In this document: in pieces, positions 46,530 to 51,713 of the stretch | How positions within the stretch are numbered: the stretch's first letter is position 1 | Layout: each line of letters opens with the position of its first letter | Origin: Tissierellia bacterium | GTDB taxonomy: Bacteria; Bacillota; Clostridia; Tissierellales; Peptoniphilaceae | DNA: 64,000 bases | Direction: 5' to 3' | Assembly: GCA_030532305.1 (NCBI GenBank) | Contig: JAUNLJ010000004.1 | Coordinates: 1-64,000 of the forward strand | Made by a program: the position numbers and the translations under genes | Notes under the pieces: model-generated | Database searches by the model: none | What the model was told of the DNA's origin: nothing | Seen by the model: the letters and a program-made list of their open reading frames with translations, nothing else

Positions 46530-46870
46530 GAGTTCGAGTACGTTGGTCGACTGCGCGTCATGCGAGGAAAGTCCGTGCTCCACAGAGCAAAGGTGCTGGA
46601 TAACGTCCAGTAGGGGCGACCCTAAGGCTAGTGCAACAGAGATATACCGCCAAGTTGACTTGGTAAGGCTGGAAAGGCGAGGTAAGAGCTCACCAGCACA
46701 TAGGCGACTATGTGGCTATGTAAACCCCATCTGGAGCAAGACCAAGAAGGAGCAAAAGGGTGGCTGCTCGTCACCTTCCATAAGGTAGGTCGCTAAAGCT
46801 TTTTGGTGACAAAAAGATTAGATAGATAGTCGATGAATACAGAACACGGCTTATAGATGTAGTCGGACTC
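46530..46870 (+). ncRNA. rnpB: RNase P RNA
   Basis: Catalytic RNA that trims tRNA 5' leaders. The invariant P4/J3 block GAGGAAAGTCCGTGCTC lies at 46563-46579 and the 3' partner ACAGAACACGGCTTA at 46840-46854. AAACCCCAT (P11-12 side) is also present. The 5' end GAGTTCGAGTAC (46530-46541) pairs with GTAGTCGGACTC (46859-46870), forming helix P1 and fixing both ends. Total length about 341 nt is normal. An open frame inside it is not a gene. Confidence 0.95.
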
Positions 46871-46891
46871 AATCCCTAAGGGAAAAAAAGA

Positions 46892-46923
46892 GGAGCCATA
46901 GGAAGACCTAGGGCTCTTTTTTA
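46892..46923 (+). terminator. Terminator after rnpB
   Basis: GGAGCCATAGG pairs with CCTAGGGCTC across a short loop with one mismatch, followed by TTTTTT. It separates rnpB from the T-box promoter. Confidence 0.85.
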
Positions 46924-47006: not shown

Positions 47007-47035
47007 TTGACAAAAAAATAAAATACCCTTAAAAT
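47007..47035 (+). promoter_or_regulatory. Promoter of the triple T-box / trpX-like transcription unit
   Basis: Consensus TTGACA (47007-47012), exactly 17 bp, TAAAAT (47030-47035). It lies about 35-40 bases before the first T-box. No comparable promoter is visible between the three T-box copies, so all three appear to be in one transcript. Confidence 0.88.
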
Positions 47036-47077
47036 ATGTTCCAAGCTAAGAAAAAGCAGGACCTATAGGGAAAATTA

Positions 47078-47258
47078 ACAGAGAGCCGGGAGAGCTGAGA
47101 GCCTGGCAATTGGAAGTATGGGTCGTTTCACTTTGGAGCTGGTGGGCTGATAAGGCCTATCCCGTATCCCGCGTTAAGGGTCCAAGAGATAGGTAAGACC
47201 TATAAAAAAGGTGGTAACGCGAGCACTTCGTCCTTTTGGCGGAGGGCTTTTTTATTTA
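47078..47258 (+). promoter_or_regulatory. T-box riboswitch, copy 1 (probable Trp)
   Basis: T-box leader ending in the antiterminator core AAGGTGGTAACGCG (47208-47221) and CGTCCTTTT (47229-47236), followed by a terminator arm GGCGGAGGGCTTTTTT. Uncharged tRNA would pair with the specifier codon in stem I and with the TGGT bulge, preventing termination. The best specifier candidate is TGG at 47140-47142. Its 5' half differs from copies 2 and 3; its 3' half is identical to copy 2. Confidence 0.88.
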
Positions 47259-47668
47259 AGAAAATAAGCTAAGAAAAAGCTAGATAAACATGGAAGATTG
47301 ACAGAGAGCCGGGGGAGCTGAGAGCCTGGTAATGGGAAGTGTTTGTCATTTCACTTTGGAGCTGGTGGGCTCATAAGGCCCTCCCGTATCCCGCGTTAAG
47401 GGTCCAAGAGATAGGTAAGACCTATAAAAAAGGTGGTAACGCGAGCACTTCGTCCTTTTGGCGGAGGGCTTTTTTATTTAAGAAAATAAGCTAAGAAAAA
47501 GCTAGATAAACATGGAAGATTGACAGAGAGCCGGGGGAGCTGAGAGCCTGGTAATGGGAAGTGTTTGTCATTTCACTTTGGAGCTGGTGGGCTCATAAGG
47601 CCCTCCCGTATCCCGCGTTAAGGGTTCAAGAGATAGGTAAGACCTATAAAAAAGGTGGTAACGCGAGC
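47161..47668 (+). repeat. 222-bp tandem duplication covering T-box copies
   Basis: Bases 47161-47446 match the sequence 222 bases downstream with a single difference (47404 against 47626). The unit covers one complete T-box plus the spacer TTTAAGAAAATAAGCTAAG. Near-identity in non-coding DNA indicates a recent duplication or ongoing homogenisation. Confidence 0.93.
47300..47480 (+). promoter_or_regulatory. T-box riboswitch, copy 2 (probable Trp)
   Basis: Same layout as copy 1: stem I region from 47301, candidate specifier TGG at 47363-47365, antiterminator core AAGGTGGTAACGCG (47430-47443), then CGTCC and a terminator with six T. CGCGTTA at 47392-47398 is exactly complementary to TAACGCG of the core, a possible competing structure. 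It is nearly identical to copy 3. Confidence 0.88.
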
Positions 47669-47705
47669 GCCCTCGTCCTTTTGGATGGGGGCCCATTTAT
47701 TTTTA
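47522..47705 (+). promoter_or_regulatory. T-box riboswitch, copy 3, next to the gene (probable Trp)
   Basis: Third copy, identical to copy 2 except for one base (T at 47626) until 47668. Its terminator arm then diverges: GCGCCCTCGTCCTTTTGGATGGGGGCCC replaces the copy 1/2 sequence and the T-run is TTTATTTTT. Candidate specifier TGG at 47585-47587; antiterminator core at 47652-47665. It directly controls the downstream lipoprotein gene. Confidence 0.88.
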
Positions 47706-47719
47706 AGGAGGAAGGAAAG

Positions 47720-48700
47720 ATGAAAAAGTTATTGGCCTGTCTTATGGCCCTAAGTGTCCTGGTGACAGCCTGTAGTTCTGGAGCTGGTGAGACGGCAGGG
47801 TCAGACCAGGCTGGGTCTGGGGAGGAGCTTGTTATCGGTATTATTCAATATATGGACCATGTGTCTCTAGATGCAGCCAATAGGGGTTTTCAAGAGGAGC
47901 TAGAAGCCTCTGGCAAGAAGGTCCGCTTTATAGAGCAAAATGCCAATGGAGACCTGGCTACGGTCAGTCAAATTGGAGCCAAGTTCCAGGCTGAAGAGGT
48001 GGACCTGGTCTATGCCATTGCCACCCCGGCAGCCCAGGGCATGCAAAACCAGCTAGATAAGACCCCCCTGGTCTTCTCTGCCGTCACCGACCCCCAAGGG
48101 GCAGACCTGGTAGAGAGCCTAGAATCCCCTGGGGGAAATATGACCGGGGTCAGCGACTATATAGATCCCAAGACCCAGCTAGAAAGATTCATCAGCCTCT
48201 ATCCTGAGGCCAAGACCATAGGGGTCATCTACAACACCGGGGAGCAAAACTCCAGGGTCCAGGTGGAAGAACTTAGGCAGGCAGCCGAGTCTCTGGGCCT
48301 AGGCCTTAAGGAAGTGGGCATTAGCCAAATTGCCGATGTGTCCCAGGCCATCGCCTCCTTGGCAAAAGACATAGACGGTCTTTTTGCCCTGACAGACAAT
48401 ATGGTGGCCAGTGCAGGCCCCACGGTGGCCAAGGCCCTTTTAGATAAAAAAATCCCCTCTGTATCAGCAGAAGAGGGTCAGGTAAAAAATGGTCTCCTTT
48501 TTAGTGAGGGGGTCAACTATGAAGAGCATGGCCGCCAGGCCGGAAGAATGGCCCTAAAGATTTTAGAGGGCCAGGCTCCCAAGGACTTACCTGTAGAATT
48601 TAATGAGGTCAATCATTTACTAGTTAACGAAGAGACAGCCAAGGCCCTGGGTCTGGATTTAAATCATCCAGCCCTTCAGGAAGGTACCCTGGTAAAATAA
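47720..48700 (+). CDS. ABC transporter substrate-binding lipoprotein, TrpX-like (first copy)
   Basis: 326 residues. Lipoprotein signal peptide with lipobox LVTAC (Cys18), then a type I periplasmic-binding fold of the ABC_sub_bind (PF04392) family: IGIIQYMDHVSLDAANRGFQ, YAIATPAAQGM, VFSAVTDPQGADLVESL, GVIYNTGEQNS and ALTDNMVAS. Members of this family include streptococcal TrpX for tryptophan uptake. ATG 47720 follows AGGAGGAAGG. An upstream extension of the frame to 47561 runs through the T-box and is not coding. It has no permease of its own; those follow the second copy. Confidence 0.9.
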   Translation: MKKLLACLMALSVLVTACSSGAGETAGSDQAGSGEELVIGIIQYMDHVSLDAANRGFQEELEASGKKVRFIEQNANGDLATVSQIGAKFQAEEVDLVYAIATPAAQGMQNQLDKTPLVFSAVTDPQGADLVESLESPGGNMTGVSDYIDPKTQLERFISLYPEAKTIGVIYNTGEQNSRVQVEELRQAAESLGLGLKEVGISQIADVSQAIASLAKDIDGLFALTDNMVASAGPTVAKALLDKKIPSVSAEEGQVKNGLLFSEGVNYEEHGRQAGRMALKILEGQAPKDLPVEFNEVNHLLVNEETAKALGLDLNHPALQEGTLVK

Positions 48701-48703
48701 GTC

Positions 48704-48732
48704 TTGACAAAGTGTCTTCTATACTTTACACT
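48704..48732 (+). promoter_or_regulatory. Promoter of the fourth T-box
   Basis: TTGACA (48704-48709), 17 bp, TACACT (48727-48732), starting three bases after the stop of the first substrate-binding gene. It makes the second substrate-binding gene a separate transcription unit. Confidence 0.8.
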
Positions 48733-48738
48733 GGTAAA

Positions 48739-49021
48739 CAAATTATATAAAAGGCGAGATATGAGAGAAGAACAAGGGGAGACTTTCCAGAGAGCTATCG
48801 GCAGGTGGAAGATAGCAAGAGAAGCTTGTTATATATACACTCATATAGCTGACTGGCTGAAGGAAAGTAGGCCAGTCCGGAGACCCCCGTTAGCATAGGT
48901 TGAGGATTAACTCTTAGAGGTAATTATATTTATAATTACAAATCAGGGTGGTACCACGAGATATGACCTCTCGTCCCTGTAAACCGTTTGTGTTTGCAGA
49001 GACGGGGGGTAATTTTTTTTG
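48739..49021 (+). promoter_or_regulatory. T-box riboswitch, copy 4 (probable Trp), diverged from the other three
   Basis: Classical T-box. Lower stem I pairs ACTTTCC (48782-48788) with GGAAAGT (48862-48868); AGCTAT (48793-48798) pairs with ATAGCT (48845-48850). The specifier loop contains GACTGGCTGAA, best read as TGG (48854-48856). The core AGGGTGGTACCACG is at 48945-48958. The terminator pairs CGTCCCTGTAAAC (48972-48984) with GTTTGCAGAGACG (48992-49004) and ends in eight T. The sequence is quite unlike copies 1-3, so it is not part of the recent duplication. Confidence 0.9.
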
Positions 49022-49031
49022 GAGGTAAAAA

Positions 49032-50045
49032 ATGAAAAAAAATCTTAGAAAAAAAGCCTTAGTTAGCCTTTTTCTGGGTCTAACCATGGCCCTCGTAGGA
49101 TGTAGTCAAGGTACAGGATCCAATAAGACAAATACCAGTCCAGAAGAAGAAAAGACCTTAAAGATTGGTGTTGTACAATTGGCTGAACATGTGGCTTTAG
49201 ACCGTGCCAGACAGGGTTTTGAAGAGGAATTACAAGACCAGGGCATCAAGGCAGAAATTATTTATGAAAATGCCCAGGGGGAACTTCCTTCTGTCATGAC
49301 CATTAGCAAAAATTTTATCAAAGAAGAGGTAGACCTGGTCTACGCCATAGCAACACCAGCAGCCCAAGGGGCCCAAAATGCCTTAGCTGATACAGACATT
49401 CCCCTTATCTTTAATGCCGTCACAGACCCGGTGGATGCGGGCCTAGTGGAAAGTTTAGAAAAACCTGGTGGACAGGTAACCGGAGTTAGTGACTATATTG
49501 GACCCAAGGACCAGTTAAAGGCCTTTGTAGACTTGTTCCCAGAAATTAAGACCCTGGGGGTCCTCTACTCCACCAACGAGGCCAACTCCGCCAGACAAAT
49601 AGAAGACCTAGAGGCAGCCTGTGATGAATTGGGCATCGAGCTTATGGTTAAGGGGATTAATAACATTAATGATGCTAGCCCCACCATGGCCAGCATTGTG
49701 ACCCAAATAGACGGCCACTTTGCCATTACAGACAATATGACCTCCTCATCAGCTGCCGCCATAGGCAAGATCTTAAAAGAAAATAAAATTCCTTCCTACG
49801 CCGCAGAAGAAGGCCCTGTTGAAAGTGGCCTCCTCCTATCGGATGGGGTTAGTTACCAAGAACTAGGCCATCTAGCAGGAAGACAAGCCATAGATATCCT
49901 AGTCGAAGGCAAGTCTATCAGTGATATGCCTGTTGGTTTTGCAGAAAACACCACCCGGGTAGTCAACGAAGAAGTAGCCCAGGCCCTGGGATTAGACTTA
50001 GCCATTTTTAAAGAGGCCAAATTCGTAAAAACAAGAACAGAATAA
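49032..50045 (+). CDS. ABC transporter substrate-binding lipoprotein, TrpX-like (second copy)
   Basis: 337 residues, a paralogue of the protein at 47720. Lipobox LVGC (Cys24), then the same landmarks: IGVVQLAEHVALDRARQGFE, YAIATPAAQGAQNAL, FNAVTDPVDAGLVESLEKPGG, VTGVSDYIGPKDQL and AITDNMTSSS. It is followed by permease and ATPase genes, completing an importer of the TrpXYZ type. Its own T-box and promoter lie directly upstream. GGAGGT precedes the ATG. Substrate is inferred from family and T-box, not shown. Confidence 0.9.
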   Translation: MKKNLRKKALVSLFLGLTMALVGCSQGTGSNKTNTSPEEEKTLKIGVVQLAEHVALDRARQGFEEELQDQGIKAEIIYENAQGELPSVMTISKNFIKEEVDLVYAIATPAAQGAQNALADTDIPLIFNAVTDPVDAGLVESLEKPGGQVTGVSDYIGPKDQLKAFVDLFPEIKTLGVLYSTNEANSARQIEDLEAACDELGIELMVKGINNINDASPTMASIVTQIDGHFAITDNMTSSSAAAIGKILKENKIPSYAAEEGPVESGLLLSDGVSYQELGHLAGRQAIDILVEGKSISDMPVGFAENTTRVVNEEVAQALGLDLAIFKEAKFVKTRTE

Positions 50046-50056
50046 AGAGGGACAAC

Positions 50057-50935
50057 ATGCAAGAGATACTTTTAGCCTCCCTGGAACAGGGACTTATTTT
50101 CTCCCTGCTGGCTGTGGGGGTCATGATTACGTTTAGACTATTGGATATTGCCGACCTATCGGTAGAAGGGACCTTTCCTTTGGGGGCCTTTGTCCTAGCC
50201 TGGGGCTTTGCTTCAAACTTAAACCCCTTTTTGGGCTTGGTCCTGGCCTTTGTGGCCGGATCCCTAGCCGGGCTTTTCACTTATTTTTTATACAAGAAGC
50301 TAGCCATTCCTGCCATCCTAGCCGGGATCCTCACCATGACCATCCTCTACACGGTCAACCTAAAGATCAACGGGACCTCTAATGTGCCCCTGGCCACAGA
50401 GACCACTCTTTTTGACCTGTCCCAGGCCCTACCCGATGTCCTTATTTTAGGGGTCATTGTCCTGGTGATGAAGCTGGCCCTAGACTGGTTCTTGCAGACG
50501 GAACAGGGCTACCTTTTGAAGGTAACAGGAGACAATGACAGCCTGGTGAGAAGTCTAGGCCAAAACCCCAACCGCTACCTGGCCCTGGGGCTTTTGCTCT
50601 CCAACGGCCTGGCCGCCCTAAGTGGGGCCTTAATGGCCCAGTACCAAGGCTTTGTAGATATTACCATGGGCCAGTCCATGATTGTAACGGCCCTGGCCTC
50701 CATTGTCATAGGAGAGGCCATCTTCCGCTACAATAAGAGCCTAAAAATTACCAGCCGGGGCATTCTAGGGGCCCTTATCTATAGGATAATCTATGGCCTA
50801 GCCATTCACTTTGGCCTAAACCCCGATGACCTAAAGGCGATTACAGCCCTGATCGTTATTGCCTTTATTGCCTACAATAACCTATCCGCTAGCCAAAAAA
50901 GAAGGCAGCAGATTAGAAAAGCAAAGGAGCAATAA
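50057..50935 (+). CDS. ABC transporter permease, TrpY-like
   Basis: 292-residue multi-spanning permease of the BPD_transp_2 (LivH-like) group, with GLIFSLLAVGVMITFRLLDIADLSVEGTF near the N-terminus and about eight hydrophobic segments. A conserved cytoplasmic loop LLKVTGDNDSLVRSLGQNPNRY should contact the ATPase, and GFVDITMGQSMIVTALASIVIGE follows. It lies between the second substrate-binding gene and the ATPase, 11 bases after the former. Confidence 0.93.
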   Translation: MQEILLASLEQGLIFSLLAVGVMITFRLLDIADLSVEGTFPLGAFVLAWGFASNLNPFLGLVLAFVAGSLAGLFTYFLYKKLAIPAILAGILTMTILYTVNLKINGTSNVPLATETTLFDLSQALPDVLILGVIVLVMKLALDWFLQTEQGYLLKVTGDNDSLVRSLGQNPNRYLALGLLLSNGLAALSGALMAQYQGFVDITMGQSMIVTALASIVIGEAIFRYNKSLKITSRGILGALIYRIIYGLAIHFGLNPDDLKAITALIVIAFIAYNNLSASQKRRQQIRKAKEQ

Positions 50936-50936
50936 G

Positions 50937-51713
50937 ATGTTGTCTATAAAGCATTTACAAAAGACCTTTTATCCAGGCACCCCGGAAGAAAATCGGGTCT
51001 TCAAGGATTTTAACCTAGAGACCCAGGACCATGGCTGTATTGCCATCCTAGGCCCCAACGGCTGTGGGAAATCCACCCTCTTTAACCTGGTCACAGGGGG
51101 TCTTCAGGCTGATGCAGGAAAAATTGAATTAAACGGGCTAGACCTGACCCCCATTTCTGAAGTGGACCGGGCCAAGTATATTGGCCGGGTCATGCAGGAC
51201 CCCTCTAAGGGGGTTAGCCCCAACCTGACCATCCTAGAAAACCTCTATCTTTCCCGCCTAAAGGGACAGAAGTTTGGCTTTTCCTCCCTAGTCAAAAAAG
51301 ATATCCAGGACGAGCTGGTAGACAAGCTAGCTAGTGCCAAGCTAGGCCTAGAAAACAAGCTTAACACCCAGGTCAAGTATCTTTCTGGAGGTCAAAGGCA
51401 GACCGTGAGCCTTATTATGGCCACCTACAACCGGCCAGACCTCCTCCTTTTAGACGAGCACACAGCCGCCCTAGACCCAAAAACCTCTTACCTGGTCTTA
51501 GAAAAGACCCGGGACCTCATTGACAGGGAAAAGATCCTAACCCTGATGATTACCCATAATCTAAGGACGGCCATTGATTTTTCAGACCGGATTATTATGA
51601 TGCTGGCAGGCAAGATTGTCCTAGACGTGCCCGGAAAAAGCCTAAGTGAGGAAGAGCTCACCAGGATCTACCATGAAAAGATTGACAAGCAGAGGATAAG
51701 TTTGGCCTCCTAG
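50937..51713 (+). CDS. ABC transporter ATP-binding protein, TrpZ-like
   Basis: 258-residue ATPase: Walker A LGPNGCGKSTLF, Q-loop VMQDPSKGVSPNLTI, signature KYLSGGQRQTVSL, Walker B LLLLDEHTAALDP and the H-loop MITHNL. ATG 50937 has AAAGGAG upstream and begins LSIKHLQKTF; the longer frame into the permease gene is not supported. Last gene of the T-box 4 unit. Confidence 0.94.
   Translation: MLSIKHLQKTFYPGTPEENRVFKDFNLETQDHGCIAILGPNGCGKSTLFNLVTGGLQADAGKIELNGLDLTPISEVDRAKYIGRVMQDPSKGVSPNLTILENLYLSRLKGQKFGFSSLVKKDIQDELVDKLASAKLGLENKLNTQVKYLSGGQRQTVSLIMATYNRPDLLLLDEHTAALDPKTSYLVLEKTRDLIDREKILTLMITHNLRTAIDFSDRIIMMLAGKIVLDVPGKSLSEEELTRIYHEKIDKQRISLAS

Follow-up and report, generated by a model that had tools for sequence, protein, structure and literature searches.

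Three tandem T-boxes read as phenylalanine-specific ahead of a predicted aromatic amino acid importer in a Tissierellia bacterium

Why should a single lipoprotein gene lie behind three riboswitches in a row, what might the additional copies add to its control, and how did the arrangement come about? These questions are raised by a locus in the window, a 64,000-nucleotide stretch of a Tissierellia bacterium genome, where a complete T-box is repeated three times behind one promoter and where the platform of the third copy looks weak. We consider it highly probable that these are three phenylalanine-specific transcription-antitermination T-boxes which, in tandem, control a lipoprotein, predicted to bind phenylalanine, that serves an ABC importer of aromatic amino acids.

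The array and its specificity

A previous, sequence-only reading of this DNA had placed three T-boxes in series between a single promoter and a lipoprotein gene, and this was confirmed when the Rfam T-box covariance model (RF00230) gave three consecutive matches on the forward strand of the window, each full-length (model positions 1-219 of 219). Copy 1 occupies 47039..47262 (model match 47039-47238; 87.1 bits, E 5e-19), copy 2 occupies 47262..47484 (match 47262-47460; 96.9 bits), and copy 3 occupies 47484..47704 (match 47484-47683; 98.1 bits). The gathering score of the model is 93 bits, which copy 1 misses by about 6 bits, so that a default scan returns just copies 2 and 3; the three matches that the sequence-only reading had anticipated were thus obtained, the first of them below the gathering score, and its E-value leaves little doubt that copy 1 is a T-box. 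Likewise, Tandem Repeats Finder reports a single repeat array at 47043-47684, with a period of 222 and 2.9 copies. The array therefore begins at about 47039, some 40 bases before the start originally assigned to it (47078).

Upstream of the array lies an RNase P RNA gene (46535-46869), followed on its 3' side by a terminator-like hairpin with a U-run (approximately 46887-46922; -19.1 kcal/mol). The promoter, TTGACA-17-TAAAAT, is found at 47007..47035 on the forward strand (11/12 in a consensus scan), which would put the transcription start near 47042, at the base of Stem I of copy 1. Internal promoters, which would leave copy 3 alone relevant, were rejected, as the consensus scan of the array's forward strand found no promoter-like sites within it.

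The specifier codon is UUC (Phe) in every copy, at 47127..47129 in copy 1 (calibrated register) and at 47350..47352 and 47572..47574 in copies 2 and 3 (site table), all on the forward strand. The register was calibrated on 26 leaders of the binding-protein genes SBP1 and SBP2 (see below) in relatives and on two T-boxes of the same genome, reading AAC and UAC, whose genes we take from their translations to be asnA and tyrS, respectively. An alternative specifier for the array, AUU (Ile), was rejected, given that copy 1 shows GUU at that place, while UUC is invariant and in the calibrated register. A family search for tRNA genes recovered two identical tRNA-Phe genes in this genome, each with a GAA anticodon and an ACCA 3' end, and the antiterminator bulge of copies 1, 2, and 3 reads UGGU, complementary to that ACCA end. 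Together, the UUC specifier and the UGGU bulge match tRNA-Phe, and all three copies are therefore read as Phe-specific. The family search, the sole means by which tRNA genes were sought, did not find tRNA-Tyr in this draft genome. In addition, the T-box before tyrS (L013; G000:C16:19909-20030) gave a short match of 122 nt and 42.5 bits with no good terminator found after it, and may be reduced or divergent.

The copies also share departures from the usual T-box. In the T-box region (47210-47221, 47432-47443, and 47654-47665), UGGUAACGCG replaces the consensus UGGUACCGCG in all copies, and the letters AAC stand in place of ACC after each UGGU bulge. Furthermore, Stem II of the array copies is without the AGUA/GAA S-turn that relatives have; this missing turn and the altered T-box region could reduce affinity for the tRNA. 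From their specifiers and bulges, the three copies are predicted to bind uncharged tRNA-Phe and antiterminate. Elsewhere in the same genome, the T-box region of L011, before part of another transporter described below, reads UGGUAACGUG.

The controlled genes and their relatives

The gene behind the array, SBP1 (47720..48700, forward strand), encodes a substrate-binding lipoprotein of the ABC_sub_bind family (PF04392; TrpX/CD0873 type; Pfam E 3.7e-70), with relatives in the PDB that include 6hni, 3lft, and 3lkv, the first of which is presumably CD0873. CD0873 itself is a tyrosine-import lipoprotein (PMC6816091). SBP1 is predicted to bind phenylalanine, a prediction drawn from its T-box specifier only. 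Beginning 3 nt past the SBP1 stop codon, a second promoter, TTGACA-17-TACACT (48704..48732, forward strand), precedes a fourth T-box at 48748..48981 (forward strand), which has the top RF00230 score in the window (113.8 bits) and carries the specifier UAC (Tyr) at 48836-48838 (forward strand; site table). The genes that follow on the same strand encode SBP2 (49032..50045), a second ABC_sub_bind lipoprotein that is 51% identical to SBP1 and, by its specifier, predicted to bind tyrosine, as well as an ABC permease (BPD_transp_2; 50057..50935) and an ABC ATPase (50937..51713), the latter two identified with Pfam. The gene set of a TrpXYZ-type importer, consisting of an ABC_sub_bind lipoprotein, a BPD_transp_2 permease, and an ATPase, is thereby complete, and its specifiers and relatives such as CD0873 predict that it takes up an aromatic amino acid. 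The layout points to one predicted importer under split control, with a Phe leader for SBP1 and a Tyr leader for SBP2, the permease, and the ATPase. No terminator was seen between the SBP1 unit and the Tyr T-box unit, such that SBP1 transcripts may run on into the Tyr T-box.

T-box control of such an importer has been established experimentally for TrpX of Streptococcus suis, where a binding protein of this type is regulated together with its permease and ATPase; however, trpXYZ has one Trp T-box, compared to three Phe T-boxes for SBP1 and one Tyr T-box for SBP2-permease-ATPase in the present case (PMC9382623). The genome contains a third ABC_sub_bind gene, with a T-box in which the specifier was read as UGG (Trp) (L006; G000:C22:14366-14613, reverse strand); this would give the organism Phe, Tyr, and Trp versions of one transporter type. 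Finally, T-boxes stand both before the binding protein and before the permease/ATPase of a polar amino acid ABC transporter in this genome (L002 and L011; G000:C26:90413-91788, reverse strand), with specifiers read as the Arg codons AGG and AGA, a split layout like that of the Phe/Tyr importer.

Within the family (Tissierellia/Peptoniphilaceae), an SBP1 relative at E <= 1e-20 is encoded in 67 of 130 genomes. An Rfam scan found T-boxes at 15 of the 16 best SBP1-relative loci, with exactly one before the best-matching binding-protein gene at those T-box loci, and at 11 loci of that set a T-box also precedes a second binding protein. Among the relatives examined, every SBP1 leader carries the specifier UUC and every SBP2 leader carries UAC. 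The constant specifiers and the single Phe T-box of relatives indicate that the Phe/Tyr split is conserved and the triplication is not; the triple array is, judging from these leaders, a lineage-specific expansion. A triple-core pattern with a spacing of 208-238 occurred in this genome alone among 391 of the class, although the pattern is not a census, as it would miss arrays with a different spacing or with variant cores. Double-core patterns within the family were found in G063, G107 (before ilv genes), and G072, and those of G094 were set aside because they look like unrelated repeats. The G107 locus (L140; G107:C1:1311492-1312012) consists of two tandem T-boxes upstream of ilv genes, with a specifier read as AUC (Ile), and is apparently an independent recent duplication. 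The G063 locus (L141, approximately 1325-1780; G063:C78) has two dissimilar tandem T-boxes, followed by a gene resembling 2-isopropylmalate/citramalate synthase.

Terminators and serial gating

The sequence-only reading had also given each copy its own terminator. This holds for copies 1 and 2, whose hairpins (47223-47247, with a U-tract from 47248, and 47445-47469, both on the forward strand) are canonical and score identically (nT 5.64, d 22.6), and it holds only in part for copy 3. The copy 3 hairpin (47669-47692, forward strand) is the strongest of the three at -18.6 kcal/mol, yet it is without an adjacent U-run; its U-tract is displaced into the U-rich tail CCAUUUAUUUUU, and its score (nT 2.21, d -1.9) falls under the usual U-tract threshold, whereas in relatives the leaders of SBP1 and SBP2 have an nT of 3.9-6.4. 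Since copy 3 has no adjacent U-run, its terminator may be leaky, and copies 1 and 2 probably carry most of the gating.

It is a serious possibility, if not quite a probable one, that the labour is divided outright, with copies 1 and 2 as the gates and copy 3 without an effective terminator, leaving what is effectively a double T-box. The low scores of copy 3 relative to both its neighbors and the leaders of relatives argue for this, whereas the strength of its hairpin, a tail that is still U-rich, and an intact antiterminator argue against it, as does the nature of nT and d, which are heuristic scores after d'Aubenton Carafa and not measurements.

For the preferred reading, in which all three Phe-specific T-boxes act on SBP1, the following course of events is proposed. 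When tRNA-Phe is charged, transcripts would end at the terminator of copy 1 or of copy 2. When it is uncharged, the tRNA would pair in each copy with the UUC of Stem I and the UGGU of the antiterminator bulge, and RNA polymerase would continue; to yield full-length SBP1 mRNA, transcription would thus have to pass, by antitermination, the two efficient gates of copies 1 and 2 as well as a probably leaky third. From the features described above we infer termination and antitermination in vivo, the identity of the transporter's substrate, and a leaky copy 3. Tandem T-box arrays have been read in the literature as gating at successive terminators (PMC12452182), in keeping with the original proposal that antitermination is needed at each stage, but two stages may dominate here in view of the apparent leakiness of copy 3.

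An illustrative gating model, with an assumed read-through per stage of 5% in the OFF state and 80% in the ON state, gives an induction of 16-fold for one stage, 256-fold for two, and approximately 4,100-fold for three, or approximately 400-fold if the third is leaky. Under the same assumptions, three stages raise the apparent Hill coefficient only from 1.0 to 1.24 and move the half-point to higher uncharged tRNA. Because serial, independent stages multiply, the OFF level should fall greatly while the response should steepen only modestly. Of the very tight and steep output that had been predicted for the array, tightness is consequently a fair expectation, but the gain in steepness is modest in this model.

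Origin and maintenance of the array

The middle copy holds a clear trace of how the array was formed. Up to 47381, all 20 informative sites of copy 2 carry the letter of copy 3 and not that of copy 1; from 47404 on, the terminator included, its variable sites all follow copy 1 and depart from copy 3. This pattern is explained by one crossover within the 23-base interval 47381-47404, and copy 2 is, on the evidence of these sites, a chimera of the kind that unequal crossing-over within an older two-copy array leaves behind. One T-box would have become two, the present copies 1 and 3, after which out-of-register pairing and unequal crossing-over would have produced three, with a middle unit whose front came from copy 3 and whose back came from copy 1. 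A search of the literature for tandem T-boxes formed through unequal crossing-over returned nothing relevant.

Have all copies been maintained since? Stem I of copy 1 differs from that of copies 2 and 3 at 17 sites. Within the helix above the specifier loop, the differences comprise three double and one single pair-preserving changes and no broken pairs, an outcome seen in about 1 of 10,000 trials with the same number of changes placed at random and in about 2% of trials with random letters at the observed positions. The Stem I structure was derived from the tested sequences themselves, which biases the pairing test in its favor and makes it supporting evidence only; both Stem I versions do fold separately into that helix, which is also present in the Rfam alignment. 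The pair-preserving changes suggest that both versions are maintained, and specifier, bulge, and antiterminator are retained in every copy.

These observations bear on the doubtful alternative that a lone ancestral Phe T-box does the regulating, the extra copies being a recent, neutral tandem duplication that awaits deletion and adds little control. Such a view is consistent with the near identity of copies 2 and 3, with the exact 222-lag run of 244 nt in the array, with the sufficiency of one copy in relatives, and with the fact that the recombination that built the array could also shrink it. However, about 20 sites separate copies 1 and 3 in the 5' part, with compensatory changes, and the two-copy state is therefore not recent and both copies are pairing-competent. 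The retained elements and the full terminators of copies 1 and 2 speak against neutrality as well, and a working upstream terminator must lower read-through, which makes at least some effect of the copies likely.

It is improbable that the count of three is an artifact of assembly and that the real number differs. The assembly is a draft in 34 contigs and the 244-nt exact repeat exceeds many short reads, but the longest stretch identical between copies 1 and 3 measures only 42 nt and copy 2 switches from one parent to the other within 23 nt, such that a false chimera built from a two-copy array would require very short assembly words, and real reads across 47381-47404 would imply at least three copies. 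An assembler is thus unlikely to have invented the chimera, presuming ordinary read and word lengths, although identical middle units could have been collapsed across the exact repeat, and three is best taken as a minimum.

Returning to the three-T-box reading, the array belongs to a known kind. Two or three T-boxes precede thrZ and trpE (PMC2494555), and triple T-boxes have been described for thrS (in 13% of its tandem cases), ilv, artQ-glnQ-artP, and the Streptococcus macedonicus trp operon (PMC12452182). Three in a row, called rare when the array was first noticed, is indeed rare, but it is already documented, and well beyond the tryptophan genes then cited (PMC2494555; PMC12452182). Like the array, the thrZ and thrS leaders of Bacillus consist of two or three complete T-boxes with their own terminators, in series before one gene (PMC2494555; PMC12452182); they are threonine-specific and precede a synthetase, whereas the array is Phe-specific and precedes a transporter binding protein. 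The ilv, artQ, and S. macedonicus trp triples likewise consist of three contiguous T-boxes, and artQ also belongs to an amino acid ABC transporter, but the genes and transporter families are others, and the main text of that paper mentions neither phenylalanine nor trpX (PMC12452182). The near-identical tandem copies of the G107 ilv pair, apparently a local duplication, resemble the array in kind, and differ in being two, read as Ile-specific, and set before a biosynthetic operon instead of a transporter. No Phe-specific triple array came up in a partial search of the literature. What is new here is a Phe-specific case with an unusually clear record of its formation.

A broader suggestion, which we think unlikely, is that unequal crossing-over tunes the number of gates, making it variable among strains and setting the depth of the shut-off of phenylalanine uptake, with a weak last gate. 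In the array itself, the middle copy records one crossover between the older first and last copies and thereby shows the birth of a tandem riboswitch. Together, the one-copy relatives and this array form a natural one-to-three-copy series in which the effect of added gates can be studied.
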